Shown piece by piece: positions 1,954 through 20,883 of a stretch of 20,883 nt of DNA; within the stretch, counting starts at the first letter, position 1; each line of letters begins with the position of its first letter. Under the pieces are notes generated by a model. It was not told the origin of the DNA and did not search any database. It saw nothing but the letters and a program-made list of their open reading frames with translations. The translations under genes were made by a program, and so were the position numbers. Source of the DNA: a virus; the IMG/VR virus record IMGVR_UViG_3300008107_001434, positions 1 through 20,883 of that record. One strand, 5' to 3'.

Positions 1954-2952
1954 ATGCGTTATAGCAATATCAAAACATCAATCCTAGAGCAGTTCAAAGC
2001 GCCCAATGGCAACAAGATCGTGCCGTTCATACTAGGTGCACCCGGAGGTGGCAAGTCAGCTTGTGCCCGCGAGATCATGAAAGAGCTCAATCTCGATCAT
2101 GTCGTGGAGTTCACTGCGTCACTCCGTGATCCAGTCGATGTGCTTGGCACACCTAACAACACAGGTGCGTACACCCGTTGGGTTCCGCCTGAAGAGTTCT
2201 ACATGTTGCGTCAAGGCGTTGGTCGTGTAGGTCTGATCTTGGAAGAGTTATCAGATGCCCCAGTGCCCATGCAGAATGCCCTGTGCGGTGTAGTCTATGA
2301 CTTTCGTGCGGGTCAGCTTAATCTATCAGATCAGTTGTACATGATCGCCACAGGCAATCGTACTGAGGACAAGTCAGGTGCTAATCGCATCACGTCTAAG
2401 CTGGCTAATCGTACTAGACGCTTTGACTTCCAAGAGAACGTCGACGACTGGACTGAGTGGGCGCTAGACAATGACATTGATCCTGTATTGATTCAGTTCA
2501 TTAGGTTCAGACCTGCCCTGCTGTCTGACTTCGATCCCAATCGATTCGCCAACCCTACGCCTAGATCGTGGGAGCGTGTCAACATGATCCCTGCATCGTT
2601 AGAGAACGCACTGTTCTTCGACAACTGTGCCGGTGAGGTGGGTGAGGGCGCTGCTGCTGAGTACACAGGCTTTAGACGTATCTACTTAGCACTGCCTAAC
2701 ATCGAGAGTATCTTGCTTGATCCTGCTGGTGCTGACTTACCTGCTGACCCAGCGACTCTGTATGCACTGACTGGTGCATTGGCTCGCAAGTCTACCAAAG
2801 ACAACTTCGATCGTGTATCCAAGTATCTGTCACGCATGAGCCCCGAGTTCAATGTGATGGCAACTAAGGATGCAATCAAGTTGTGCCCAGCGATTAAGTC
2901 AACACGTTCATTCGTAGAGTGGGCTAGCAAAAATGCTGAGGTGCTGATGTGA
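1954..2952 (+). CDS. MoxR/CobS-type AAA+ ATPase, 332 aa
   Basis: This is an AAA+ ATPase of the MoxR/CbbQ/CobS type, which works as a ring that remodels or loads cofactors into a target protein, usually with a VWA-domain partner. Visible motifs: Walker A GAPGGGKS (residues 28-35), a TGAYTRWVPP segment (about 70-79) as in MoxR/CobS proteins, Walker B LILEELSDA (94-102), sensor 1 ATGNR (132-136) and an Arg finger region NRTRRFDF (about 152-159). The length is normal for the family. I chose ATG 1954 because it has an AAGGA site and gives MRYSNIKTSI; the 21 extra residues from 1891 would be read through a hairpin. The matching VWA gene at 4628-5734 makes a functional pair very likely. The target is unknown. 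Confidence 0.88.
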   Translation: MRYSNIKTSILEQFKAPNGNKIVPFILGAPGGGKSACAREIMKELNLDHVVEFTASLRDPVDVLGTPNNTGAYTRWVPPEEFYMLRQGVGRVGLILEELSDAPVPMQNALCGVVYDFRAGQLNLSDQLYMIATGNRTEDKSGANRITSKLANRTRRFDFQENVDDWTEWALDNDIDPVLIQFIRFRPALLSDFDPNRFANPTPRSWERVNMIPASLENALFFDNCAGEVGEGAAAEYTGFRRIYLALPNIESILLDPAGADLPADPATLYALTGALARKSTKDNFDRVSKYLSRMSPEFNVMATKDAIKLCPAIKSTRSFVEWASKNAEVLM

Positions 2953-3182
2953 CATATGTGTGGATGCAAGACAGCAACTACACAGCAACACTTTTGTACA
3001 AGCAAGACCCTAATGATAAAACGCCACAGCGTATGGCGTGGGTCGCTTGTGCGTACAGCACAGCTCAAGGGTACAAGAAGTTTTGGAAAGCCCGAATTGT
3101 CGGGACAAGCGAATTAAATATGTTCGATACAGAGCAACAAGCCAAAGACTGGGCTCAAGCAGTCGTTCTTCTCAACCAATGA
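2949..3182 (+). CDS. Small hypothetical protein in the MoxR-VWA cassette, 77 aa
   Basis: The start is GTG at 2949, overlapping the ATPase stop as GTGA, with GAGGTG about ten bases upstream. An ATG at 2964 is a possible alternative start that would remove five residues. The product is a small soluble protein (TATLLYKQDPND..., KKFWKARIVG) with a C-terminal helix after MFDTEQQAKDWAQAV. That tail resembles the end of the 97-aa protein at 1544-1837. Its stop codon overlaps a TCAACCA leader motif (3172-3178) that precedes the next gene. Function unknown; the position suggests an accessory role in the ATPase/VWA cassette. Confidence 0.6.
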   Translation: MTYVWMQDSNYTATLLYKQDPNDKTPQRMAWVACAYSTAQGYKKFWKARIVGTSELNMFDTEQQAKDWAQAVVLLNQ

Positions 3183-3191
3183 AAGACCTAT

Positions 3192-4067
3192 ATGCAACCA
3201 ACCAAACTGGCAGATAAGGTAATACTTGTCAAGCTAACAATGCGTCGTGCTTCACTGACTAAACGTGATGCATATCTATCAGACAAGATACAACGGCAGG
3301 AGGGTGATACATCGCTCACTGTGCTGACTAAGTTGTTCAAGTCTAAAGACAATCCGATTGCGCAGATCATGTCTAAGTACACAGAGGTGTATGCGTATCA
3401 CAAGAAGCACACGCTTCCCTATGTGGATGCAGGCCCACGTATCCTACCTAACGATCTGTACTTTGAGTACACGCAAGAGACTAAGCATCGCATTGCCATG
3501 ATGGAGAATCTCAAGCGCAACTACATGCCACACTACGATCAGCTAGTGCTTGAAGATGTAGCGTATCGTAACAGTGGACACGCGGCAGGTAGGGCTCATG
3601 TGGATGACTATCCAACGGCATCCCAGTTCGATCAGTCTATGTCTATTGACATTAAGTTTCAGCCCATGCCTGACTCAAGGCACTTCCTGTTTGACTTAAG
3701 TGAGGAGGACTTGAAGTCGTTCGAGCAGTCAGAACAAGAAGCAGCAGAAGCTATGAACATGGACACCATCGCTCGTATGCTCAAGCCACTGTCAGCACTC
3801 ACTCAGCGCTTGCAAGAGTATCAGGGTCAGAAGGGTGAACGCTTCCACAATAGTCTTGTCGAGAACGTCATTGAAGGTTGTGACGTAGCGCTTAAGTTGG
3901 CAATCAATCCAACGCAAGAGTTAATCGATGAGATCAACATTCTCAAAGCAACAGCGACTGGCTGTCTCAATACAGTCGAAGTCATCAAAGGTTCAGCCAA
4001 TGCTAGGCACGACGCCAAAGCTAAGCTCGAAGCAGTAGCCGCTCGCATGGCGGCATTCAACATCTAA
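3192..4067 (+). CDS. DUF3150-like protein of the MoxR-VWA cassette, 291 aa
   Basis: The product shows the layout I associate with the DUF3150-type proteins coded next to MoxR ATPases: a helical N terminus, then a conserved-looking core YHKKHTLPYVDAGPRILPND (about residues 69-88), DDYPTASQFDQ (about 138-148), and PMPDSRHFLFDLSEEDLKSF (about 158-177). From about residue 180 it is helical with Gln/Glu-rich coiled-coil character (LTQRLQEYQGQKGE) and an Ala-rich tail. There is no catalytic motif. In the family it is thought to be a structural or adaptor subunit, but its role is not established. It lies between the ATPase and the VWA gene, as expected for a three-part complex. The family call is from memory of the motif pattern. 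Confidence 0.62.
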   Translation: MQPTKLADKVILVKLTMRRASLTKRDAYLSDKIQRQEGDTSLTVLTKLFKSKDNPIAQIMSKYTEVYAYHKKHTLPYVDAGPRILPNDLYFEYTQETKHRIAMMENLKRNYMPHYDQLVLEDVAYRNSGHAAGRAHVDDYPTASQFDQSMSIDIKFQPMPDSRHFLFDLSEEDLKSFEQSEQEAAEAMNMDTIARMLKPLSALTQRLQEYQGQKGERFHNSLVENVIEGCDVALKLAINPTQELIDEINILKATATGCLNTVEVIKGSANARHDAKAKLEAVAARMAAFNI

Positions 4068-4076
4068 GGAAAGGTT

Positions 4077-4625
4077 ATGACAATGCGACCAACGCTCTAT
4101 CAAGCATCTAGGATGCTAACAACTGCAGGTGTATCAGCAGAGATCAAGTTCGACCCAACGCAGATTACTAATCGTTTGCGTAAGTCTATTCAACGCCAAG
4201 TGACAAGCGGTGTTATTACTGGAGGCTATTCATCACACGCATCGCGTCTTGCCAAGTATCTGTGTAAGCAGTTTGATTTGCGATACTCAGACAGTAGTTG
4301 GTATGGCTTACGAGTTCCTACTATGGAAGATAAATATCGCGAAGGCTTTGTTGAGCTTATTCACGCAGATTTAGCAGCGTATCTATTAGACGCTGATGAT
4401 CGAGACCCCACATGGCACAAGAACAATGCCGCAAGTGCAATCAATAAGATCAGATCAGGTATTGATACTGATGTAAGAACGCACAGCAGTATCTTTCAGA
4501 AGAAGTTGCAAGCGCTTATTGTGTCAACCCGCACCCCCGAAGAGGTGCAGAAAGCTAATCAAGTAGCGGCAATGCTTGACGCATGTAACCCAATCACCAT
4601 CAACCAATACAACTCAGAGGACTAA
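4077..4625 (+). CDS. Hypothetical protein in the MoxR-VWA cassette, 182 aa
   Basis: ATG at 4077 follows AAGGAAAGG; a second in-frame ATG is at 4083. The protein is soluble and mostly helical, with a basic N-terminal half (NRLRKSIQRQ, SRLAKYLCKQ) and no catalytic motif, Cys pair or membrane segment that I can identify. The middle holds many aromatic residues (YSDSSWYGLRVPTMEDKYRE). It sits directly before the VWA gene with a two-base gap and is probably co-translated with it. I do not recognise the family. It could be a phage-specific linker or a target of the ATPase/VWA pair; that is inference from position only. Confidence 0.65.
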   Translation: MTMRPTLYQASRMLTTAGVSAEIKFDPTQITNRLRKSIQRQVTSGVITGGYSSHASRLAKYLCKQFDLRYSDSSWYGLRVPTMEDKYREGFVELIHADLAAYLLDADDRDPTWHKNNAASAINKIRSGIDTDVRTHSSIFQKKLQALIVSTRTPEEVQKANQVAAMLDACNPITINQYNSED

Positions 4626-4627
4626 TC

Positions 4628-5734
4628 ATGAAAGTAACTACCCTAGACAAGGCAAAGGTATCGCTCGTAACACAGCATCCTTTCTTTGCCTCTATCCTTA
4701 TGAAGCGCCAGCTCATCGAGGATGAGACTATCCCAACAGCAGCAGTAGATCAGCGCAATCAAATCTACATCAACCCTACATGGTTCAACACACTATCTGT
4801 TGAAGAGGTTGTGTTCGTACTAGCACACGAGATCGGCCATGTGATCGGTCAGCATGCGACTCGTCGAGGTGCACGCACTCCTAAGAAGTGGAACATTGCA
4901 GGCGATGCTTGGATCAATGACATGCTCAAGGCAGCAGACATTGGCACACCCATCAAGGGATGCGTACAGATGGATGGCTCTAAGGATGAGACAGTCGATG
5001 AGATTTACAACAAGCTCCCCGATGATCCTAATGGTGATGGGCCCGGAGGTACAGGCGACGACATCATTGAGCGTGGCTCACCACTGACCCCAGAAGAAGC
5101 TACGCGCATCGATGCTGAGACTCGTGTCGAGATTGCACAAGCAGCACAGGCAGCTAAGGCTCAAGGCAAGATGCCCCCTGCATTGGCTAAGATCATTGCA
5201 GACCTCATCGATCCCGGAACACCATGGCACGAGATTCTCGAGCGTTACATGACAAGCTATGTACGTGGAGACTATTCATGGTCACGCCCCAACCGCAGAT
5301 TCGCTGACATTGCGTATCTCCCAAGCGCAGGCAAGGTAGCTGAGATGGGCGAGGTTGTCATCCAAGTCGACGTATCAGGCTCTATCAGTAAGACAGAGTT
5401 GGCTTATTACAACGGTCACATGGCTCGCATCATTGCGCAGTGCAACCCCGAGCGAGTACACGTCTTGTATGTTGACACTGGTGTATGCAAGCATGAAGTA
5501 TTCGAGCAAGGCGAGGAAGTAGCACTAGAGTTCTACTCAGGCGGAGGCACTGACATGGAAGCAGGCTTCGAGTTCCTTGCCAAGGAGGGCATTGAGCCCG
5601 AGGTATTTGTCTGTCTGACAGATGGTTACACAGACTTTAATGTAGATAAAGCACCTAACTACCCTGTTTTGTGGTGTATTTCTAGTGACATTAACGCTCC
5701 TTACGGTGAAAATATCCATTTTTCACTGGAGTAA
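4628..5734 (+). CDS. Metallopeptidase-like plus VWA protein (DUF2201 type), 368 aa
   Basis: This is a two-domain partner of MoxR ATPases. The N-terminal part (about residues 1-135) has the zinc-protease-like motif AHEIGHVIGQH (HExxH at 67-71) followed by NIAGDAWIND (89-98), the pattern of the DUF2201 putative metallopeptidase domain. A Gly/Asp-rich linker (PNGDGPGGTGDD, 134-145) and an Ala-rich helix follow. The C-terminal part (about 240-368) is a VWA-like domain with the metal-ion site: DVSGS (248-252), GGGTD (305-309) and LTDG (330-333). Both the HExxH and the metal-site residues are intact, so it should bind Zn and Mg. It probably works with the ATPase at 1954-2952. Whether it cuts proteins is not known. 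Confidence 0.85.
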   Translation: MKVTTLDKAKVSLVTQHPFFASILMKRQLIEDETIPTAAVDQRNQIYINPTWFNTLSVEEVVFVLAHEIGHVIGQHATRRGARTPKKWNIAGDAWINDMLKAADIGTPIKGCVQMDGSKDETVDEIYNKLPDDPNGDGPGGTGDDIIERGSPLTPEEATRIDAETRVEIAQAAQAAKAQGKMPPALAKIIADLIDPGTPWHEILERYMTSYVRGDYSWSRPNRRFADIAYLPSAGKVAEMGEVVIQVDVSGSISKTELAYYNGHMARIIAQCNPERVHVLYVDTGVCKHEVFEQGEEVALEFYSGGGTDMEAGFEFLAKEGIEPEVFVCLTDGYTDFNVDKAPNYPVLWCISSDINAPYGENIHFSLE

Positions 5735-5736
5735 TT

Positions 5737-5889
5737 ATGGACGCAATGGATCAACTGAACAGTTTGCTTGACTCGTATCAAAACATTCTGAAGCTATGCT
5801 ACGACGCCCTCGATGCAGGTGCATCACAACAAGAACGTGATGCACTTAGAAAATCAATAGAGGCTTTCGTATCAGAGAGCAACGATTAA
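5737..5889 (+). CDS. Small acidic helical protein closing the cassette, 50 aa
   Basis: ATG at 5737 lies two bases after the VWA stop and follows CACTGGAG. It codes MDAMDQLNSLLDSYQNILKL..., a 50-residue acidic, entirely helical peptide with heptad-like Leu spacing, ending EAFVSESND. Its TAA at 5887-5889 comes directly before a hairpin, so it is the last gene of the ATPase/VWA operon. It may be a small adaptor, but nothing shows its function. Confidence 0.6.
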   Translation: MDAMDQLNSLLDSYQNILKLCYDALDAGASQQERDALRKSIEAFVSESND

Positions 5890-5893
5890 CCAA

Positions 5894-5915
5894 GGGGCGC
5901 AAGCCCCATTCTTTT
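5894..5915 (+). terminator. Short hairpin with GCAA tetraloop and U-rich tail
   Basis: GGGGC (5894-5898), loop GCAA, GCCCC (5903-5907), then ATTCTTTT. The stem is only five base pairs but all G-C, and the GNRA loop is stabilising. It is probably a weak or partial intrinsic terminator, or an RNA end-stabiliser, since the next gene starts only 18 bases later with no visible promoter between. Confidence 0.55.
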
Positions 5916-5932: not shown

Positions 5933-6601
5933 ATGGCTACAGTAAACATTACAAAAGAGTTCAAAGAGCGAGTTGAATCTCGCATTCGCAAGATGCATCA
6001 CAAAGAATTAGAAGCTGAGCTACCGCACCTCAACAAGCCACAACAGTTAGATGCTCACTACTTGTATCATTTTGGGTGCTGGGGTAAGGATCATATGCAC
6101 CTTGTGCATGAGATACCTAAGGATTGGTTAGGTAAAATTGACGATGTGCAGATCGTTATCAAGGGCGAGACTGATGAAGGTAAGAAGACTGCATGCACCA
6201 TTAGGTTCACTGGTGTCAATGGGTACAAACGCCCTCGTGATAGTTATTACATGAAGGCAGAATCTGAGATCACGTATGATGACTTAGTGGCATTGCCTGA
6301 TACGGTACTGGGCAGAGCCGAGGCGCTTCAAGCATGGGAGGAGAACAAGCAAGTTGTTGTACTCGATGCCAAATGGAAGAAAGTAGAGAGCGACATTCTC
6401 GAGTTCCTTGGCAAGTGTAAGACACTTAACGAAGCAGTTAGACTGTTTCCCAGTGTGCGGCTGTATGTCAATCGAGATGACTTAGAGCGTTTAGATCGTA
6501 AGGTCGAGCGCTTTACTGAGCGTAAGAAGATTGTGGAAGAGATGGCAACCGATGAACTAACCGCAGCCGCCATCGCTGCGAGACTTGCGGGGGCAATATG
6601 A
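5933..6601 (+). CDS. Nmad5-like phage protein, possibly linked to DNA base modification, 222 aa
   Basis: The N-terminal half begins ATVNITKEFKERVESRIRK and continues with a mixed alpha/beta region (DDVQIVIKGETDEGKK..., TIRFTGVNGYKRP). The C-terminal half is a long charged helix followed by LGKCKTLNEAVRLFPSVRLYV (residues about 159-179) and a coiled-coil tail rich in Arg, Lys and Glu. The segment 'T-L-x-x-A-x-x-L-F/W-P-x-V' after a helix is what I recall from Nmad5, a domain named for its association with phage nucleotide modification genes. No enzyme motif is visible and no modification enzyme is coded in this window, so the role is open. I am only moderately sure of the family. Confidence 0.6.
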   Translation: MATVNITKEFKERVESRIRKMHHKELEAELPHLNKPQQLDAHYLYHFGCWGKDHMHLVHEIPKDWLGKIDDVQIVIKGETDEGKKTACTIRFTGVNGYKRPRDSYYMKAESEITYDDLVALPDTVLGRAEALQAWEENKQVVVLDAKWKKVESDILEFLGKCKTLNEAVRLFPSVRLYVNRDDLERLDRKVERFTERKKIVEEMATDELTAAAIAARLAGAI

Positions 6602-8218: not shown

Positions 8219-8449
8219 ATGGAAGACCCAAACATCATGCAAGTAGGCGGTACACACTACGTATCTATGGCAGTACAGCCATGGGAAGTCATGGAAGCAG
8301 TCATGACTCGTGAAGAATTTATCGGGTTTCTCAAGGGCAACATCATCAAATACTCAATGCGCCAAGGCAAGAAAGAAGATAGCGATGACGTTGGTAAATT
8401 ACAACACTACATGGCTAAACTAAAACAGGTGCAGTCATGGGAGTTCTAA
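8219..8449 (+). CDS. DUF3310 family protein, 76 aa
   Basis: The product matches the phage DUF3310 pattern: GGTHY near the N terminus (residues 10-14), then VQPWEVMEA (about 19-27), a helix with FLKGNIIKYSMRQGKKED (about 37-54) and a final DVGKLQHYMAKL helix. These small proteins are widespread in phages, usually near nucleotide metabolism or replication genes. They are sometimes labelled nucleotide kinase by annotation transfer, but no kinase P-loop is present here and the activity is not proven. ATG at 8219 follows AGGA and a TAACCAC leader motif (8200-8206). The gene overlaps the next one by 13 bases. Confidence 0.82.
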   Translation: MEDPNIMQVGGTHYVSMAVQPWEVMEAVMTREEFIGFLKGNIIKYSMRQGKKEDSDDVGKLQHYMAKLKQVQSWEF

Positions 8450-8712
8450 GCAGCATGCTGCATGCGATTACAACAGTTACCAACCCTGCACAACAATCAA
8501 GTGTGATGCGTGATTACATGGAAAAGCCACGCATGAAGAACAAGACTATCTTCAGTGGCAGGATTGAAGTACAGCAAGTATGTAACGGTTACATCGTACA
8601 CATTGCATCCCGAGAGGGCTACGAGTTTGACTCGCACATCGCAGCCAACATCAAAGAGGTTAACGAGTTAATCTCAACAGCGATTGTTGCGTTTCAACTG
8701 GAGGGTAAATGA
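8437..8712 (+). CDS. Hypothetical protein upstream of the DNA polymerase, 91 aa
   Basis: ATG at 8437 lies inside the end of the DUF3310 gene; an in-frame ATG at 8458 is an alternative. After a short helical N terminus, residues about 38-72 look like a small beta sheet (KTIFSGRIEVQQVCNGYIVH, then EGYEFDSH) with a final helix. No catalytic or metal motif is seen. It ends in an ATGA overlap with the polymerase gene, so the two are coupled. Function unknown. Confidence 0.55.
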   Translation: MGVLSSMLHAITTVTNPAQQSSVMRDYMEKPRMKNKTIFSGRIEVQQVCNGYIVHIASREGYEFDSHIAANIKEVNELISTAIVAFQLEGK

Positions 8713-10643
8713 AACCAATTTACTTGGACTTTGAGACGTACTGGGATACAACCCACACGCTCTCGCGCATGTCTCCAACAGAGTACATACAACATCCTGA
8801 TACAGAAATCATTTCGGTATCTATCAAGGAAGGCGATGAGCCTACATACGTATTGTTTGGCGAGGACAATATACGCACCCACATGCAGGCAATGGACTGG
8901 TCAGATGCAATGGCAATCGGCCACAACATGTCCGGCTTTGACTCAATGATCTTAGCTTGGCGACTAGGGATAAACCCTAAGATGTACGGATGTACAGCAG
9001 CCATGGCAAGGTCGCAGTATTCCAAAACGTCAGTGTTCTTTGGCGGTAAATCCCTTACAGGTGTATCGCTTAAGAAGCTAGCGTATGAGTTTGGTGTAGG
9101 CGCAAAGTTAGACCTCGAAGCTACTAATACTAAGGGTAAACACCTAGCTAACTTTAGCGAAGATGAGATCGCCTCGATGGAGGAATACAACAAGGTAGAC
9201 ACTGACCTGTGCGCTAAGTTGTTCAAGAAGCTAGCCAAAGGCTTCCCTAAACAGGAGTTGGTTTTGATAGACATGACTACACGCATGCTTGTCGAGCCGA
9301 AACTGTTACTGGACGCCCCGAAGGTGCATCAAGCGCTTAAGCTTGTAAAGGAAGAGAAGCGCGATTCATTGCTTCAGTTAGCCAAAGCCTTGGATATTGG
9401 CACGTTTGTAGCTAACCGACTAAACGGCACTAGCATCGAGGAGACTGTACGTACTGAGTTAGCGTCAGCCGCCAAGTTTGGTGCGTTGCTTGAGAAGCTT
9501 GGTGTGCCAGTACCCATGAAGGTATCGCCTAGCAACCCTGCCAAGATGACACCCGCACTGGCTAAAACAGACGAGGCATTTATAGCCTTACAAACGCACA
9601 AGAACCCGCTTGTAGCCGCCGCTGCAATGGCTAGGCTAGAAGTTAAGTCTACCCTGTTAGAAACGCGCTTAGAGGCTTTCTTGCAGACCGCAGCGGTATG
9701 TGGAGGCAAGATACCTGTACCTCTTAAATACGCCGGCGCAGACACAACTGGGCGTTGGTCAGGTGAGCAGTACAACATGCAGAATTTACCTCGCATTGGT
9801 GCGTCACCTAAGCCCTCAGATGCCTTGCGTATGTCGTTACTCGCCCCTCCCGGGCACAAGGTGATCGTGTCTGACCTGTCCGGTATTGAGTTGCGGGTCA
9901 ACATGTTCCTGTGGAAAGTCCCGTATGCGATGGCATTGTTTGAGGCAAGCCCTGACAAAGCTGATCTTTACAGGTACTTTGCTGCCCATGATCTGTACAA
10001 CATCGATGAGATACAAGTCACCAAGACCCAGCGTCAAGTGGGTAAAGTTGCTCACCTCGGCCTAGGTTTTGGAGCTGGGGGTGCTACGTTCCAAAAGGTT
10101 GCCAAGCTCATGGGTGGCGTGGACATGAGCCTAGATGAAGCAACAAAGGTGGTAGACGCTTACCGTTCAGCCCATGCAGAAATTGCTACAGGGTGGAAAA
10201 CGTTTCAAAATAAACTTACCAACATCAAGCAAGGCGTGGAGTCGGCCATTGACCCGTGGGGTATGTGCGTTACCGAACAAAACGCAGTGCGCCTACCATC
10301 GGGCCGTCGCATCTACTACCCCGATCTCAAACAAGAACGTGATGACAACGGCAAAATGGAATGGTGGTATGGCAATGGTCGCACTCGGGCGCGCATCTAT
10401 GCAGGGAAAGGTGTAGAGAATTTAGTTCAAGCCCTTGCACGCGACGTCATTGCAGAGCACGCAGTTAAGTTCTTTAAGGCTACTGGGATGCGGCCAGCAC
10501 TCACCGTGCATGACGAGCTTGTGTACGTAGTTCCGGAAGATTCTGCCGAGCAATCCCTAGAACAATTACAAGCCATCATGCGTCAAGGTGTGTCATGGTG
10601 GCCCGAGTTGATAACATGGTCTGAATATGGCGAAGCAAAATAG
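8709..10643 (+). CDS. Family A DNA polymerase with 3'-5' exonuclease, 644 aa
   Basis: This is the replicative DNA polymerase. Exonuclease motifs: Exo I DFE (Asp7, Glu9), Exo II GHNMSGFD (Asn73, Asp78), Exo III YNKVD (Tyr160, Asp164). Polymerase motifs: TTGRWSGEQYNMQNLPR (346-362), motif A SDLSGIELR (388-396, catalytic Asp389), motif B RQVGKVAHLGLGFGAGG (442-458) and motif C VHDE (600-603, Asp602). All catalytic residues are present, so both activities should work. The residue in motif B equivalent to E. coli Phe762 is Leu450. There is no 5' nuclease domain, as usual for phage enzymes. GGAGGG and an ATGA overlap support ATG 8709. The antisense frames at 8720-9286 and 9374-9958 are shadows. Confidence 0.95.
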   Translation: MKPIYLDFETYWDTTHTLSRMSPTEYIQHPDTEIISVSIKEGDEPTYVLFGEDNIRTHMQAMDWSDAMAIGHNMSGFDSMILAWRLGINPKMYGCTAAMARSQYSKTSVFFGGKSLTGVSLKKLAYEFGVGAKLDLEATNTKGKHLANFSEDEIASMEEYNKVDTDLCAKLFKKLAKGFPKQELVLIDMTTRMLVEPKLLLDAPKVHQALKLVKEEKRDSLLQLAKALDIGTFVANRLNGTSIEETVRTELASAAKFGALLEKLGVPVPMKVSPSNPAKMTPALAKTDEAFIALQTHKNPLVAAAAMARLEVKSTLLETRLEAFLQTAAVCGGKIPVPLKYAGADTTGRWSGEQYNMQNLPRIGASPKPSDALRMSLLAPPGHKVIVSDLSGIELRVNMFLWKVPYAMALFEASPDKADLYRYFAAHDLYNIDEIQVTKTQRQVGKVAHLGLGFGAGGATFQKVAKLMGGVDMSLDEATKVVDAYRSAHAEIATGWKTFQNKLTNIKQGVESAIDPWGMCVTEQNAVRLPSGRRIYYPDLKQERDDNGKMEWWYGNGRTRARIYAGKGVENLVQALARDVIAEHAVKFFKATGMRPALTVHDELVYVVPEDSAEQSLEQLQAIMRQGVSWWPELITWSEYGEAK

Positions 10644-14936: not shown

Positions 14937-14984
14937 ATGAGTTGCATATTTACAACAGCTGGAGATCACAATGGACACCCTTGA
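14937..14984 (+). CDS. Possible 15-aa leader peptide overlapping the primase start
   Basis: GGAG at 14927-14930 and ATG at 14937 open a 15-codon frame (MSCIFTTAGDHNGHP) that ends at TGA 14982-14984, 14 bases inside the primase gene in another frame. Translation of it could affect ribosome loading at ATG 14971. The bases TTTCACTGGAGTA before it also occur at 5721-5733 before the 50-aa gene. There is no independent proof of translation. Confidence 0.25.
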   Translation: MSCIFTTAGDHNGHP

Positions 14985-17900
14985 GTTCCTCCGCACAATC
15001 CTGCCCGAATACGGCATACATTACTTGACGCTCTTTACCAAAGAGGTCAATCCAAAGACGAACAAGCCGTACACCTACCACAAGTACTACCTAAGCTTGG
15101 AGGAGATGGCTGACGCTATACCTTACTGGGAAAACAACCCCAAGTTTGTGGCAACCTACCATGCATGCGCATCGTATCTAAAGCCATTCATTGAAGTTGA
15201 GAAAGACGGGGAGACCCGCAAGAAATATCGCGTTGAAGAAAACTGGGATCGCGCCAAATCTTTTTGGATTGACATTGACTGTGGGCAAAAGAAACACGAC
15301 GCAGGGCAGGGCTACTTGACGCAGATGGATGGCGTTAAAGCTATTGCAATCTTTGCTAAGAAGGTAGGTTTGCCCCGCCCCATGATTGTGGATTCAGGCA
15401 ATGGCGTCCATGCTTACTGGCCTCTGACCAAAGACATTAGCCACACGAAGTGGGTCATGGTTGCCAAGTGGTTGAAGTCGTGCCTTGCGCACGAGAATGT
15501 CCTTGCAGATTCGTCACGAACTGCTGACTTTGCAAGCATCTTGCGCCCTGTCGGGTCAGCAAACCGTAAGGGTGAACCTAAGCCAATCAAAGTTAGATCA
15601 ACGTGCGAGCCTATCGAGCCCGGGGCATTTGCACTAGCACTTCAAACCTTCGTGGCAGACAATGACGTTAAGCTCATTAAAGAGTCCGTCAAACGTGCCT
15701 ACAACACCGATTTAAACTCTGACTTAACGGGTCACCTTACCCAGTATCCTGACGTGCCTGTAGATGCCAACGAGATGGCCAGTAAATGCCTTCAGGTAGG
15801 TGCTATGCGGGATTCTAAGGGGGATGTAGGATACGAGCCTTGGCGTGGCGTTATCGGTCTTTTAAAGCACTGCGAAGATGGCGAGAAGTTCTCCGAGGAG
15901 TGGAGCGCCGAGCGTGAAGCAACCGGCCACGACCAGATAGACTGGCAAAACAAGTACGACACATGGGAAGCCGGCCCTACAACCTGCTCATTTTTTGAGC
16001 AACATAACTGCAATGGTTGCACTGGCTGCGAGTTCAAAGGCAAGATCAATACACCCCTAGTCCTTGGTAGGGTAATCCCTATCGTAGAAGAATCAACTGC
16101 GGAAATCGTAACTGATGAAGGTGTAGTTCAAGAAGCCGCCATACCAGCACTGCCCTATGGCTACATATGGGACGGTAAATTGCTTAGCCGCCTACTCCCG
16201 GATAAGGAGGGCGTGCTACAACCGCTGTCTTTCTGTGAGAACCTGTTCTATCCAACAAGCCGTATCCGCAGCGAAGATGGCACATTTAAGTACGGCATTA
16301 GATTCCATCTACCTGACAAACGCATTCGGGACTTTGACATCTTGGGAGAATCTGTTGCTTCATCAACCGATTTGTTACGCGCACTAGCTCGATACGAACT
16401 AACAAAGAGTAACCACAAAAATGCAGGGGATCACATGTCTGCTTATTTGCTAGACCAGTTGCAGGCGCTAAAGCGAAGAATCACTGAAACCAATACCCTC
16501 ACAGCATTTGGTTGGCGAGACGAACACAAAGCCTTTTTGCTGGGTGACAAGCTGTACACCAAGGGTGCAGAACCTAGCGAAGTGTTAATTGGCGGCAATG
16601 CCAAAGAACGGGCAAGTACGTTTACGGCTAACAAAGGATCGCTGGAAGGCTACGCTGAAGCCTTAAACTTCTTGTACAACCGAGAAGGCGCAGTCCACTG
16701 GCAGTACACCATCTGTGCAGGCTGGGGCTCTTTACTAGCACACCACTGTGAAGACTTGTACAAAGGTTTGATCTTGGCATTGCAAGGCGGAGATACTGCC
16801 CGAGGCAAAACGACTGTCTGCCATGCGGCACTTGCGGCATTCGGTAACCCTGCAAAGATGACACTAAACTCCAAGGATGGTTTTACAACAAACGCACTGT
16901 GGGCAACCCTTGGTGTATTCAACAACATCCCTGTGTTGGTGGACGAGTTGACCGGTGTAGACCCTGCCACTTTTAGTGATGTAGCGTACGGCGTATCGAA
17001 TGGCCAAGACAAGATTCGCATGACCTCCAAAGGTGGCAATGTAGTCTTTGCCAAGTCATCTGAATGGCGGCTTAATGTTTATGTAACTGGCAACAAAGAC
17101 TTCCATGGATTGCTTGCGGCCAATCAAGCCAACTCTCAAGCTGAAGCTGTTCGTCTTATTCAAGTTAACGTAGACCGCTACCCTCCGCTTGTATTAACGG
17201 ATCGCTCTGAATACCCCGAAGGTAAAGAGGGTGACGACGCTTGGAATGCAGCATCAGCTATTGTGGCGGCAGAGAACATTAAGCAGATGACGCAGAACAG
17301 CGGCCATGCTGGGGCAGCCATCATTAAGTACATGCTAGACAACGAGGCAACAGTAACTAAAGCCATGGCAGAGTTTTTGGCTAGGTTTACTCAAATTCTG
17401 CCAAGCCCCAAGTATCGGTTTTACCGTGCTCACAGTGCATGCACGATGGTCATTGCGCAGATAGCAAAAAAGCTCGGCATCATCGAGTTTGATCTTCAAG
17501 AACTGTATGCATTTACAGTGAAGTTGATTGTTGAATTATCTGAGTCAGTCATGGAAACAAATACCATTTCTGCAGAAGATGCATTCCACCGCATGGTCAG
17601 TCACCTTGGCCCTCGCATCATTGTTACCAGTGAATACCGAGACAAGCGCGATGGCAGGGGCCCTGAGTCCCCACGTACGCGTGTAATGGGAGATGTGGCA
17701 GGGCGGTATGTTCTTGGGTCAAACAGCCACAAAGATCAGGCTGGACACTTGATGTTGTCGCAGAAAGAAGTCCGCGACTGGTGCATGAAGAACCGCATTG
17801 ACTTCCATGCAATGATGACAACCTTACAAAAAGAAGGCGCATTGCTTAAGCAGGGTGAGAAGTTTACCCTGACTCGAGGAACTGACTATCCCATCGTGCA

Positions 17901-18009
17901 ACAACGATGCATTTTTGTGGATACGCTCAAGCTTGACAAAGACTCAATAGCCCCTGCGCTGACATTAGTTTCTAATCAGTTTGACGGAGAGGCTGTTGGA
18001 GATGTATGA
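14971..18009 (+). CDS. Primase-helicase: AEP-like primase fused to DUF927-type helicase, 1012 aa
   Basis: The N-terminal part (about residues 1-230) looks like an archaeo-eukaryotic-type primase: FWIDIDCG (Asp101, Asp103), DSGNGVHAYWPL (141-152, His147) and LRPVGSANRKGEPKPIKV (191-208). A helical region follows, then a Cys cluster (Cys339, Cys347, Cys350, Cys353) that probably binds zinc. From about 390 comes a DUF927-type ATPase: Walker A GGDTARGKTT (606-615), Walker B IPVLVDEL (653-660), NGQDKIRMTSKGG (677-689) and sensor YVTGNKD (704-710). The C-terminal ~300 residues are helical with a likely winged-helix end. It should both prime and unwind. GGAG precedes ATG 14971. The length and joined domains are usual for phage or plasmid enzymes of this class. 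Confidence 0.87.
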   Translation: MDTLEFLRTILPEYGIHYLTLFTKEVNPKTNKPYTYHKYYLSLEEMADAIPYWENNPKFVATYHACASYLKPFIEVEKDGETRKKYRVEENWDRAKSFWIDIDCGQKKHDAGQGYLTQMDGVKAIAIFAKKVGLPRPMIVDSGNGVHAYWPLTKDISHTKWVMVAKWLKSCLAHENVLADSSRTADFASILRPVGSANRKGEPKPIKVRSTCEPIEPGAFALALQTFVADNDVKLIKESVKRAYNTDLNSDLTGHLTQYPDVPVDANEMASKCLQVGAMRDSKGDVGYEPWRGVIGLLKHCEDGEKFSEEWSAEREATGHDQIDWQNKYDTWEAGPTTCSFFEQHNCNGCTGCEFKGKINTPLVLGRVIPIVEESTAEIVTDEGVVQEAAIPALPYGYIWDGKLLSRLLPDKEGVLQPLSFCENLFYPTSRIRSEDGTFKYGIRFHLPDKRIRDFDILGESVASSTDLLRALARYELTKSNHKNAGDHMSAYLLDQLQALKRRITETNTLTAFGWRDEHKAFLLGDKLYTKGAEPSEVLIGGNAKERASTFTANKGSLEGYAEALNFLYNREGAVHWQYTICAGWGSLLAHHCEDLYKGLILALQGGDTARGKTTVCHAALAAFGNPAKMTLNSKDGFTTNALWATLGVFNNIPVLVDELTGVDPATFSDVAYGVSNGQDKIRMTSKGGNVVFAKSSEWRLNVYVTGNKDFHGLLAANQANSQAEAVRLIQVNVDRYPPLVLTDRSEYPEGKEGDDAWNAASAIVAAENIKQMTQNSGHAGAAIIKYMLDNEATVTKAMAEFLARFTQILPSPKYRFYRAHSACTMVIAQIAKKLGIIEFDLQELYAFTVKLIVELSESVMETNTISAEDAFHRMVSHLGPRIIVTSEYRDKRDGRGPESPRTRVMGDVAGRYVLGSNSHKDQAGHLMLSQKEVRDWCMKNRIDFHAMMTTLQKEGALLKQGEKFTLTRGTDYPIVQQRCIFVDTLKLDKDSIAPALTLVSNQFDGEAVGDV

Positions 18010-18996: not shown

Positions 18997-20883
18997 TTAA
19001 TTTTCAGCTACGGATTCTGCCAGTTTTCTTTGCCCTTGGCGATAGGTTACACCGCCAATAGTTTGTTTCTCACGTTCTCTTTGCTCTTGCGGTGCTTTGA
19101 GCAAGTTAGACAGTGGTTGTGGTTTCAAACCATTTTCTTGACGAGTACGCTGTAATTTCTGCCAAGCTTCGCGAGCGTCTTGTTTACCTTCGCCATCGTT
19201 TTCGCGAACAGCTTTAGCATAATCATTTTTAATTCGCGTTGTACGATCTTGGAAGTTCTGAGTAACATCGCGCATGCGATTCTGTCGCTCATAAACAACA
19301 GTTTCTTTAACAGACGGAACACCTAAACCTGTCAAGACGGCAGAGATTGCACTGACCTCATCGGCTGGCAATACCACATCACCGTTACGGCGAGTCATAC
19401 CTTCAGCAGCTTGGCGTCCAGCTTTGAGCGCATCGGATACACCCTTGGGCATAGTGCGCTCGACACCTTTGTAGTAATCACCACTGAGAATTAACCCCAT
19501 GCCGTCGGCTACACGAGACACCATGCCTAGCGATGCGCCTCCTACCAAAGTACCAAATGCTTCTGCACGGCCAGCCGTTGTGCTGAGATCGGCGTCGCTA
19601 AATGGCATGATAGAAAGCATGTTGCCCGCACCAATCTTGCCTGACAAATCAACGCCCACTAACGTGGGAGCGCCGCGCATAATCAGGTCAGCCCACTCAG
19701 GGCCAAGAGCCTGACGCATATCAGCAGTTAAATCGTACGGCTCATCCTCGTCGCCGAAGAAGCCCAAGATTGCAGCAATCGCAGCGTAACCGGGCAAGCC
19801 CATCATGCCAGCAAAGACTGCGGTATGACCTAATGAGAAAGCCAGTGTGCGCATGGCAACAGCTCGCTCAGCAGGGTTTGTAAACGCATCGCGCAACAAC
19901 TTGGCGTAGAACGCAATCTGAATCAACTGGAACTTACGGAACTGTAGCGCAACCTTACCCCACTGGCTGTTAAAAATGCGAGGCGCATTCATAGCGGTGT
20001 AATCGCCATGGGTGTCAGTCAGAATGTCAGCAGCGTACTGCGTAGCTTTTTCTGTGTCTTTAGTTCTTGCAAACTCTAAACGGTAGGCAGCGATGGCAGT
20101 AGACAAACGGTTGGTAGCTTCCACTTTCTGCACAGCCAAGCGCATGCTCTTGTTTAAGCGTTGTGCAAACTTACCCAACTTGCTATCAGCATCAACTTTG
20201 TATTCGTTAATTTCAGTGGCTAAGCCAATGTCAATCTGACCTTGGTTAACGAGTTTCGTAATCGCTGCGCGTACATCAGCAGGAACTTTGGAGAAATCAA
20301 ACTGCTGGTCAAACAACTTAATGTCTTTAAACAGTGGGCCAAGTTCAGCGTAAGCATCAAATAAAGCCTTACCTGCTTTGGTGTAGTCATGACGGCCAGC
20401 CAGCGCAGGCAGAGACATCATGAATGGCTGTGTCAAATTCTGCATGTAGTACGCAGGACTCGAAGCCAAGAAGTACTTAGAAGCCGTGTTTGTCAGGCCG
20501 GTAATAAACCCGTTGCCCTTGGTTTCCAAAGAGTCAACATAACGCTTGGTCAGTTCGTCAAAGATTTCTGACTTGCGTTCGCGGTTTCCGCCACGGCGAT
20601 CGTTACGCATTTGCTGCAATGCATCTTGGATCAACGGCTCAAACTCTACGTTGGCAAGGAAGTTAGCATCAGCGCGACCCTGACGAGTAAACGCCTGCAA
20701 CATATCTACTTCACCAGCTACGCCACGACGACGCATCTCGGACTTGCGAGCACTGCCCTCTGCCAACGCCTCCAAGTACAACTGGCTAACGATGTTTAAC
20801 ATCTTGCTGCGATCAGAGTCGTCGCGTTTGTCAACTGCAGCACGAATTTTGGTCAGTGCTGGCAAGAGCGCTTCGCCGCTAAA
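18997..20883 (-). CDS. C-terminal part of a giant phage polyvalent protein (LPD38-like), partial
   Basis: The frame is open to the window edge (six more codons beyond the TTG at 20865), so this is the 3' end of a longer gene. At least 628 residues are visible. The N-terminal visible part is charged and helical. About 300-345 of the visible chain (WGKVALQFRKFQLIQIAFYA, AKLLRDAFTNPAERAVAMRT) is followed by a hydrophobic, Gly/Ala-rich segment (GHTAVFAGMMGLPGYAAIAA) and the acidic GDEDEPYD. This is the layout I associate with LPD38, a domain at the end of the very large polyvalent proteins that some phages carry in the virion and probably inject. The tail is Arg/Gln-rich and disordered. It lies on the opposite strand to the replication genes, as expected for a structural block. 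Confidence 0.75.
   Translation of the reverse strand, partial: FSGEALLPALTKIRAAVDKRDDSDRSKMLNIVSQLYLEALAEGSARKSEMRRRGVAGEVDMLQAFTRQGRADANFLANVEFEPLIQDALQQMRNDRRGGNRERKSEIFDELTKRYVDSLETKGNGFITGLTNTASKYFLASSPAYYMQNLTQPFMMSLPALAGRHDYTKAGKALFDAYAELGPLFKDIKLFDQQFDFSKVPADVRAAITKLVNQGQIDIGLATEINEYKVDADSKLGKFAQRLNKSMRLAVQKVEATNRLSTAIAAYRLEFARTKDTEKATQYAADILTDTHGDYTAMNAPRIFNSQWGKVALQFRKFQLIQIAFYAKLLRDAFTNPAERAVAMRTLAFSLGHTAVFAGMMGLPGYAAIAAILGFFGDEDEPYDLTADMRQALGPEWADLIMRGAPTLVGVDLSGKIGAGNMLSIMPFSDADLSTTAGRAEAFGTLVGGASLGMVSRVADGMGLILSGDYYKGVERTMPKGVSDALKAGRQAAEGMTRRNGDVVLPADEVSAISAVLTGLGVPSVKETVVYERQNRMRDVTQNFQDRTTRIKNDYAKAVRENDGEGKQDAREAWQKLQRTRQENGLKPQPLSNLLKAPQEQREREKQTIGGVTYRQGQRKLAESVAEN

Follow-up and report, generated by a model that had tools for sequence, protein, structure and literature searches.

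What would a phage gain from a molecular machine of the MoxR type? The question is raised by a 20,883-nucleotide stretch of viral DNA (positions 1 to 20,883 of IMG/VR virus record IMGVR_UViG_3300008107_001434; hereafter, the window), in which six plus-strand open reading frames (ORFs) are packed between positions 1954 and 5889, overlapping or spaced by 2 to 10 nucleotides. A sequence-only reading had described them as a phage-borne cassette of a complete AAA+ ATPase, a DUF3150-like adaptor, a metallopeptidase-VWA protein, and three small proteins of 77, 182, and 50 amino acids (aa). Every ORF indeed lies where that reading placed it and on the plus strand, and the ATPase start at 1954 is preferred over the ORF start at 1891 because it is closely preceded by AAGGAA and many of the homologues measure 330 to 336 aa. 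We show here that the ATPase, DUF3150, and VWA genes form a conserved triad with intact key motifs, carried by phages, conjugative plasmids, and contigs of bacterial genomes. The architecture and distribution of the triad are well supported; its target is one that we infer.

The ATPase is complete, as first described. It carries Walker A (GAPGGGKS), Walker B (LILEEL), sensor-1 (ATGNR), and an arginine-finger region (NRTRR), and both Walker motifs, the sensor-1 Asn, and the arginine-finger region are kept across 245 aligned homologues. The protein matches a PHROGs ATPase family (phrog_1297, E = 2.1e-63) and has both the motifs and the nearby VWA gene that mark a MoxR ATPase. It falls under the Pfam cutoffs for MoxR-type domains (AAA_3, 11.7 bits against 27; AAA_5, no match at E = 0.001), and a cyanophage relative passes the AAA_5 cutoff.

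The VWA protein likewise matches its description. It passes both DUF2201 models of Pfam, DUF2201_N and DUF2201 (PF13203 and PF09967; E = 2.4e-52 and 5.3e-21; 178.6 and 75.5 bits against cutoffs of 23.2 and 26.4), and it matches phrog_1314 with an E value of 1.2e-96. Its metallopeptidase motif is HEIGH at residues 67 to 71, with D93 and N97 also conserved, and the metal ion-dependent adhesion site (MIDAS) of the VWA domain is complete (D248, S250, S252, T308, and D332). The HExxH and MIDAS residues are near-invariant over the phage family, other phages, plasmids, and genome contigs, the main exception being the catalytic HExxH Glu, which is lost in 9 of the 29 genome loci without DUF3150; the HE of the motif is also lost in one plasmid VWA protein. 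These genome loci without DUF3150 are mostly of Desulfovibrio type (L268 to L328), and where their VWA proteins have lost the Glu, both His residues remain. A profile search of the PDB with the VWA alignment returned weak TCTP matches of no evident meaning. PHROG 1314 is labeled "HNH endonuclease," as are many RefSeq phage proteins resembling N4 gp25, and this label looks like a propagated misannotation.

The 291-aa protein encoded between them had been called DUF3150-like, a label that profile comparison upholds though a direct Pfam match is lacking. Direct scans with PF11348 gave no match for the protein or for 23 of its relatives, and an own-genome search was empty. When its family was aligned by hhalign with nine plasmid DUF3150 proteins, the probability was 99.8 (E = 3e-29) over 280 columns; a Cupriavidus plasmid protein of that set, annotated DUF3150, scores 22.1 bits against PF11348 (E = 1.1e-4), below the cutoff of 24.9. 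The DUF3150 protein of plasmid pCAR1 aligned with the family profile at a probability of 93.5 over 104 N-terminal columns, and two unrelated control proteins from the plasmid scored 1.1 and 0.2. An AlphaFold2 model of the 291-aa protein (predicted local distance difference test [pLDDT] score, 88.2) matched a BFVD phage protein annotated DUF3150 (template modeling score, 0.71). Foldseek found no matching fold in the PDB (best E = 0.3), and a PDB profile search with the 291-aa alignment gave chance-level matches only. The protein is, judged by its profile, a distant relative of the curated DUF3150 family.

Within the phage family, conservation was scored over 81 loci, namely the window and 80 loci from IMG/VR, with many of the gaps being contig ends. 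Homologues of the VWA protein occur in all 81, those of the 291-aa protein in 75, of the 222-aa product of the next gene in 72, of the 182-aa protein in 70, and of the ATPase and the 50-aa protein in 69 each; the 77-aa gene occurs in 20. Because gene order is maintained in nearly all 80 related viral loci, the arrangement of the cassette is not one of chance. Such a neighborhood survey had been named beforehand as a means of refuting the cassette, and it found co-conservation. The claim stands for five of the six genes and fails for the 77-aa gene, which is confined to close relatives and is dispensable. As to the accompanying suggestion that the small proteins are phage-specific parts or the substrate of the machine, the 182- and 50-aa proteins have no relatives, bar one weak match, outside the family of the query phage and so could be phage-specific parts; no homologues of them were found in plasmid loci. 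Direct scans of all three against Pfam, PHROG, NCBIfam, and PADLOC gave nothing reliable. The 182-aa protein has 68 long homologues (mean column identity of 26% in the alignment) and a confident AlphaFold2 model (pLDDT, 91.8), for which Foldseek returned no PDB match; a profile search of the PDB stayed at chance level. Its gene is missing in some relatives and is placed after the 50-aa gene in three loci (L069, L070, and L080).

The initial framing of the cassette as something specific to phages was not borne out, as plasmids and contigs of bacterial genomes carry the triad with its gene order unchanged. Contiguous ATPase-DUF3150-VWA genes in this order are found in plasmids of Burkholderia, Cupriavidus, Caballeronia, Paraburkholderia, Variovorax, and Rhodovastum, where some adjoin PRTRC genes and others type IV secretion genes; the cassettes of Burkholderiales plasmids share with the window the VWA family as well as the three genes. 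Among loci with sufficient sequence upstream, a VWA-seeded scan recovered the same order in 38 of 63 genome-contig loci and 23 of 61 further viral loci, start and stop codons often overlapping; the scan yielded 51 genome loci with DUF3150 altogether. Acidobacteriota, Cloacimonadota, Chloroflexota, and Bacteroidota are among the phyla named in the record titles of triad loci. A scan of bacterial genomes with the phage DUF3150 alignment had found none, its search patterns being too phage-specific. Plasmid pCAR1 has the triad order in ORF101-103, with a VWA protein of a different type (604 aa, annotated NorD, with MIDAS-like and HECSH motifs) and DUF3150 homology over the roughly 104 N-terminal columns only; its authors reported ORF100-103 to be conserved in R478, Rts1, SXT, and R391 (PMC2642839).

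Among phages, VWA relatives are present in 685 records and ATPase relatives in 712, including N4-like phages (gp25 and gp24), whose gp24/gp25 proteins are counted as core in some published analyses. A single-sequence search found DUF3150 in only three phage records. No hidden DUF3150 was detectable beside the ATPase-VWA pair in N4-like phages, Bacillus phage G, Thermus phiFa, a Klebsiella jumbo phage, roseophage CRP-7, or plasmids pSYSA and pREL1.

How the three genes came to be so distributed was addressed with a quick VWA tree of 109 rows, many of whose forks are weak. On it, the presence or absence of DUF3150 changes 13 times, against a mean of 34.8 when states are shuffled (0 of 500 shuffles as low), and element type changes 20 times, the rows from phages, plasmids, and genomes being intermingled. 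Pairwise distances for the ATPase, DUF3150, and VWA proteins are correlated (r = 0.62 to 0.74; Mantel test, 0 of 500), also when only phage versus non-phage pairs are considered (0.43 to 0.61). Because changes in DUF3150 state are few, element types are interleaved, and distances are correlated, the triad appears to behave as a unit exchanged among elements, with DUF3150 gained or lost repeatedly. The triad occurs in phages, plasmids, and genome contigs and would therefore serve a function needed by mobile DNA of many kinds.

Phage copies of the cassette form part of the replication module. Among loci with at least 4 kb of downstream sequence, 50 of 50 in the family and 27 of 59 other viral ones have a DNA polymerase A gene downstream of the cassette and on its strand; Rhizobium phage RHph_TM3_14A and LUZ7 show the same arrangement. 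Recurring neighbors of the genome-contig triads are genes for Gp157/Gam-like proteins, RadC, SSB, Rad52, RNase H, ParB, and integrase, and the pCAR1 triad has SSB, RecT, and an exonuclease in its vicinity. When the ATPase profile was compared with solved structures, the AAA modules of midasin (Rea1/Mdn1) came first (E = 8e-36), followed by weaker matches to other AAA+ proteins, including CbbQ/NirQ/NorQ (1.6e-7). Midasin is a remodeling machine in which an AAA ring works with a MIDAS domain.

Taken together, these results lead us to a reading that we regard as about evenly poised between right and wrong: the operon may encode a three-subunit AAA+ remodeling machine, with accessories particular to the phage family, that acts on a complex met by mobile DNA. 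The ATPase would form a ring, onto which the VWA protein would dock, the MIDAS metal gripping an acidic residue of the target or of an adaptor. DUF3150 would bridge ring and VWA protein or else present the target, and cycles of ATP hydrolysis would pull the target apart or reset it, the HExxH domain possibly clipping it. The most likely target would be a complex that mobile DNA meets during replication, recombination, or establishment in the cell, either the complex with which the element itself replicates or recombines or a host protein that sits on it, rather than a tetrapyrrole or, chiefly, the virion, and the 182- and 50-aa proteins would act as adaptors specific to the phage family.

By analogy, remodeling of the midasin or RavA-ViaA kind would be the best reading of what the machine does. 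Midasin is a single giant chain of six AAA modules engaged in eukaryotic ribosome assembly, whereas the window encodes separate proteins and adds DUF3150 and the HExxH domain. To our knowledge, ViaA lacks a metallopeptidase domain of the type found in the window VWA protein. RavA-ViaA also differs in having no DUF3150, and the window proteins match no RavA/ViaA family model; what the two have in common is a MoxR ATPase with a separate VWA partner (PMC3893208). A bolder version, which we advance tentatively and think more apt to be wrong than right, would make DUF3150 the defining third subunit of an unnamed AAA+ machine exchanged by phages, conjugative plasmids, and integrative elements, a small, split midasin that takes apart or resets protein complexes on replicating or newly arrived mobile DNA and that the HExxH domain turns into a remodeling protease.

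Several points weigh against the remodeling machine as we propose it. DUF3150 is not universally needed, as many relatives have the ATPase and VWA protein without detectable DUF3150. Because midasin has six AAA modules, its whole-sequence score is summed over several of them and is inflated. Nearness to replication genes may merely reflect expression timing, and the neighbor counts for genome contigs are small (2 to 4 of 140 genes per family) and come without a background control. The scans also took the 80 loci nearest the query from each collection, and their frequencies are not a census.

Counter-defense or host takeover, which we consider rather unlikely, would have the triad capture, unfold, or cleave a host protein that restricts incoming phage or plasmid DNA. 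It would account for the sharing of the triad by phages, plasmids, and integrated elements, and unrelated mobile elements do share it; an HExxH domain fused to a VWA domain would also suit such a role, as would the DarB-like antirestriction gene in the same window and the Nmad5-like neighbor of the cassette, since mutations that escape the Tmn system map to the Nmad5 family (PMC11846954). However, PADLOC defense models gave no convincing match, and anti-defense genes are often patchy, whereas in the phage family those of the cassette are core and keep their order. Planktothrix phage Pag-Yong1 carries, just past the cassette, a gene annotated as the anti-CRISPR AcrVA2 (L332, 5454 to 6494). This neighbor is not conserved in the other loci examined, which led us to reject it as a part of the system and which tells against counter-defense as well.

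A role of the pair as a virion-assembly chaperone that remodels or processes proteins of the tail or head seems decidedly improbable for this cassette. Assembly was proposed for the MoxR-vWA pairs of jumbo phages (PMC7824862); p618 of Acidianus two-tailed virus (ATV) binds both a VWA protein and virion proteins (PMC4124505); and roseophage RPP1 encodes four virion proteins close to its homologues of N4 gp24/gp25 (PMC4193335). MoxR-VWA pairs in other phages may have such a role, which for ATV is supported by interactions. Yet the phage triad lies in the replication module, N4 gp24 and gp25 are middle genes (PMC4193335), and a role limited to the virion fits poorly because conjugative plasmids carry the same triad yet make no virion.

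That viral CobS/CobT would boost the supply of cobalamin together with the CobN of the host is very improbable: the AAA+ ATPase and VWA partner of CobS-CobT share the general architecture of the window pair, and a chelatase has been put forward for tailed viruses of archaea and annotated in roseophages of the CRP-810 type (PMC8651126; PMC11288001), but this reading fits poorly and was dropped because NCBIfam CobS/CobT profiles match neither the window proteins (E up to 1) nor their relatives (E up to 0.01) and PHROGs offered only a weak porphyrin-biosynthesis match (E = 0.22), in keeping with the doubt already voiced in the sequence-only reading that a phage would use a chelatase.

With the three-subunit remodeling machine as the preferred reading, the window cassette can be set beside published systems. 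The MoxR-VWA pairs described for jumbo phages (PMC7824862), N4 (gp24/gp25; PMC7650795), and ATV (p618/p892; PMC4124505) likewise join an AAA+ ATPase to a VWA partner, which in N4-like phages has the same DUF2201_N and DUF2201 layout as the window protein. The published pairs that we examined have no DUF3150, whereas the window cassette has it between ATPase and VWA protein and adds the 182- and 50-aa accessories. The vWA-MoxR-VMAP ternary conflict systems resemble the window in having a third conserved protein, which is VMAP instead of DUF3150; the paper describing them names neither DUF3150 nor DUF2201 (PMC7159879). In the searchable literature, outside which most subscription journals lie, DUF2201 is mentioned and DUF3150 is not. 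DUF3150 as third subunit of a MoxR-VWA pair is thus absent from that literature, whereas phage MoxR-VWA pairs have already been published.

Although MoxR-VWA pairs abound in phages and plasmids, few have a known target, and their labels vary from chelatase to HNH endonuclease to metallopeptidase. A fixed three-gene unit across kinds of elements speaks against a role purely in virions or in vitamin supply, and it gives the uncharacterized DUF3150 family a firm genomic context. Genetically tractable carriers such as pCAR1 open the way to a direct test.

Features of the cassette and its surroundings (positions are those of the window)
Feature	Position	Strand	Remarks
AAA+ ATPase	1954..2952	+	332 aa; ORF open from 1891; phrog_1297 match
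77-aa protein	2949..3182	+	Overlaps ATPase stop codon; no known family
291-aa protein of DUF3150 family (candidate third subunit or adaptor)	3192..4067	+	Assigned by profile comparison
182-aa protein	4077..4625	+	Limited to family of query phage
Metallopeptidase-VWA protein, 368 aa	4628..5734	+	DUF2201_N and DUF2201
50-aa protein	5737..5889	+	Directly 3' of VWA gene; conserved in phage family
Terminator-like hairpin GGGGC-GCAA-GCCCC, then ATTCTTTT (T-rich tail)	5894..5915	+	Ends operon
222-aa Nmad5-like protein	5933..6601	+	Next transcription unit
DNA polymerase A (context)	8709..10643	+	Downstream of cassette

A terminator-like hairpin 3' of the 50-aa gene is present in 20 of 83 relatives, compared to 54 of 1,700 control stretches. 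The 222-aa protein encoded beyond it has no direct Pfam match to Nmad5 (PF18757), and the link runs through the viral loci L199 and L178: hhalign aligns it with a viral cluster (99.2, E = 3e-19), two members of which pass the Nmad5 cutoff. It is, on this profile evidence, a remote relative of Nmad5, a family carried by phages with hypermodified thymine (PMC9476957). The Nmad5-like gene lies between the ATPase and VWA genes in many viral loci without DUF3150 and after the VWA gene where DUF3150 is present. We dropped the idea that its product is an obligate subunit, as a relative occurs without the triad in Pseudomonas phage Rollin (in the 30- to 61-kb part examined) and none was detected in RHph_TM3_14A, though the ATPase and VWA protein are there.

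In three Cupriavidus plasmids (L151, L158, and L160), the triad lies a few kilobases from PRTRC genes, including one for a ThiF-family protein. The MIDAS domain of midasin grips a ubiquitin-like domain, and a link of the triad to ubiquitin-like proteins is therefore worth considering. Elsewhere in the window, the DarB-like antirestriction protein is a fragment on the minus strand (18997 to 20883), cut by the contig end. A 76-aa protein (8219 to 8449) matches a small domain common to many phage "nucleotide kinase" families and is probably not a kinase by itself. A 1,012-aa primase-like protein (14971 to 18009) is, together with the polymerase, related to counterparts in Rollin and RHph_TM3_14A, the nearest cultured relatives that we found.

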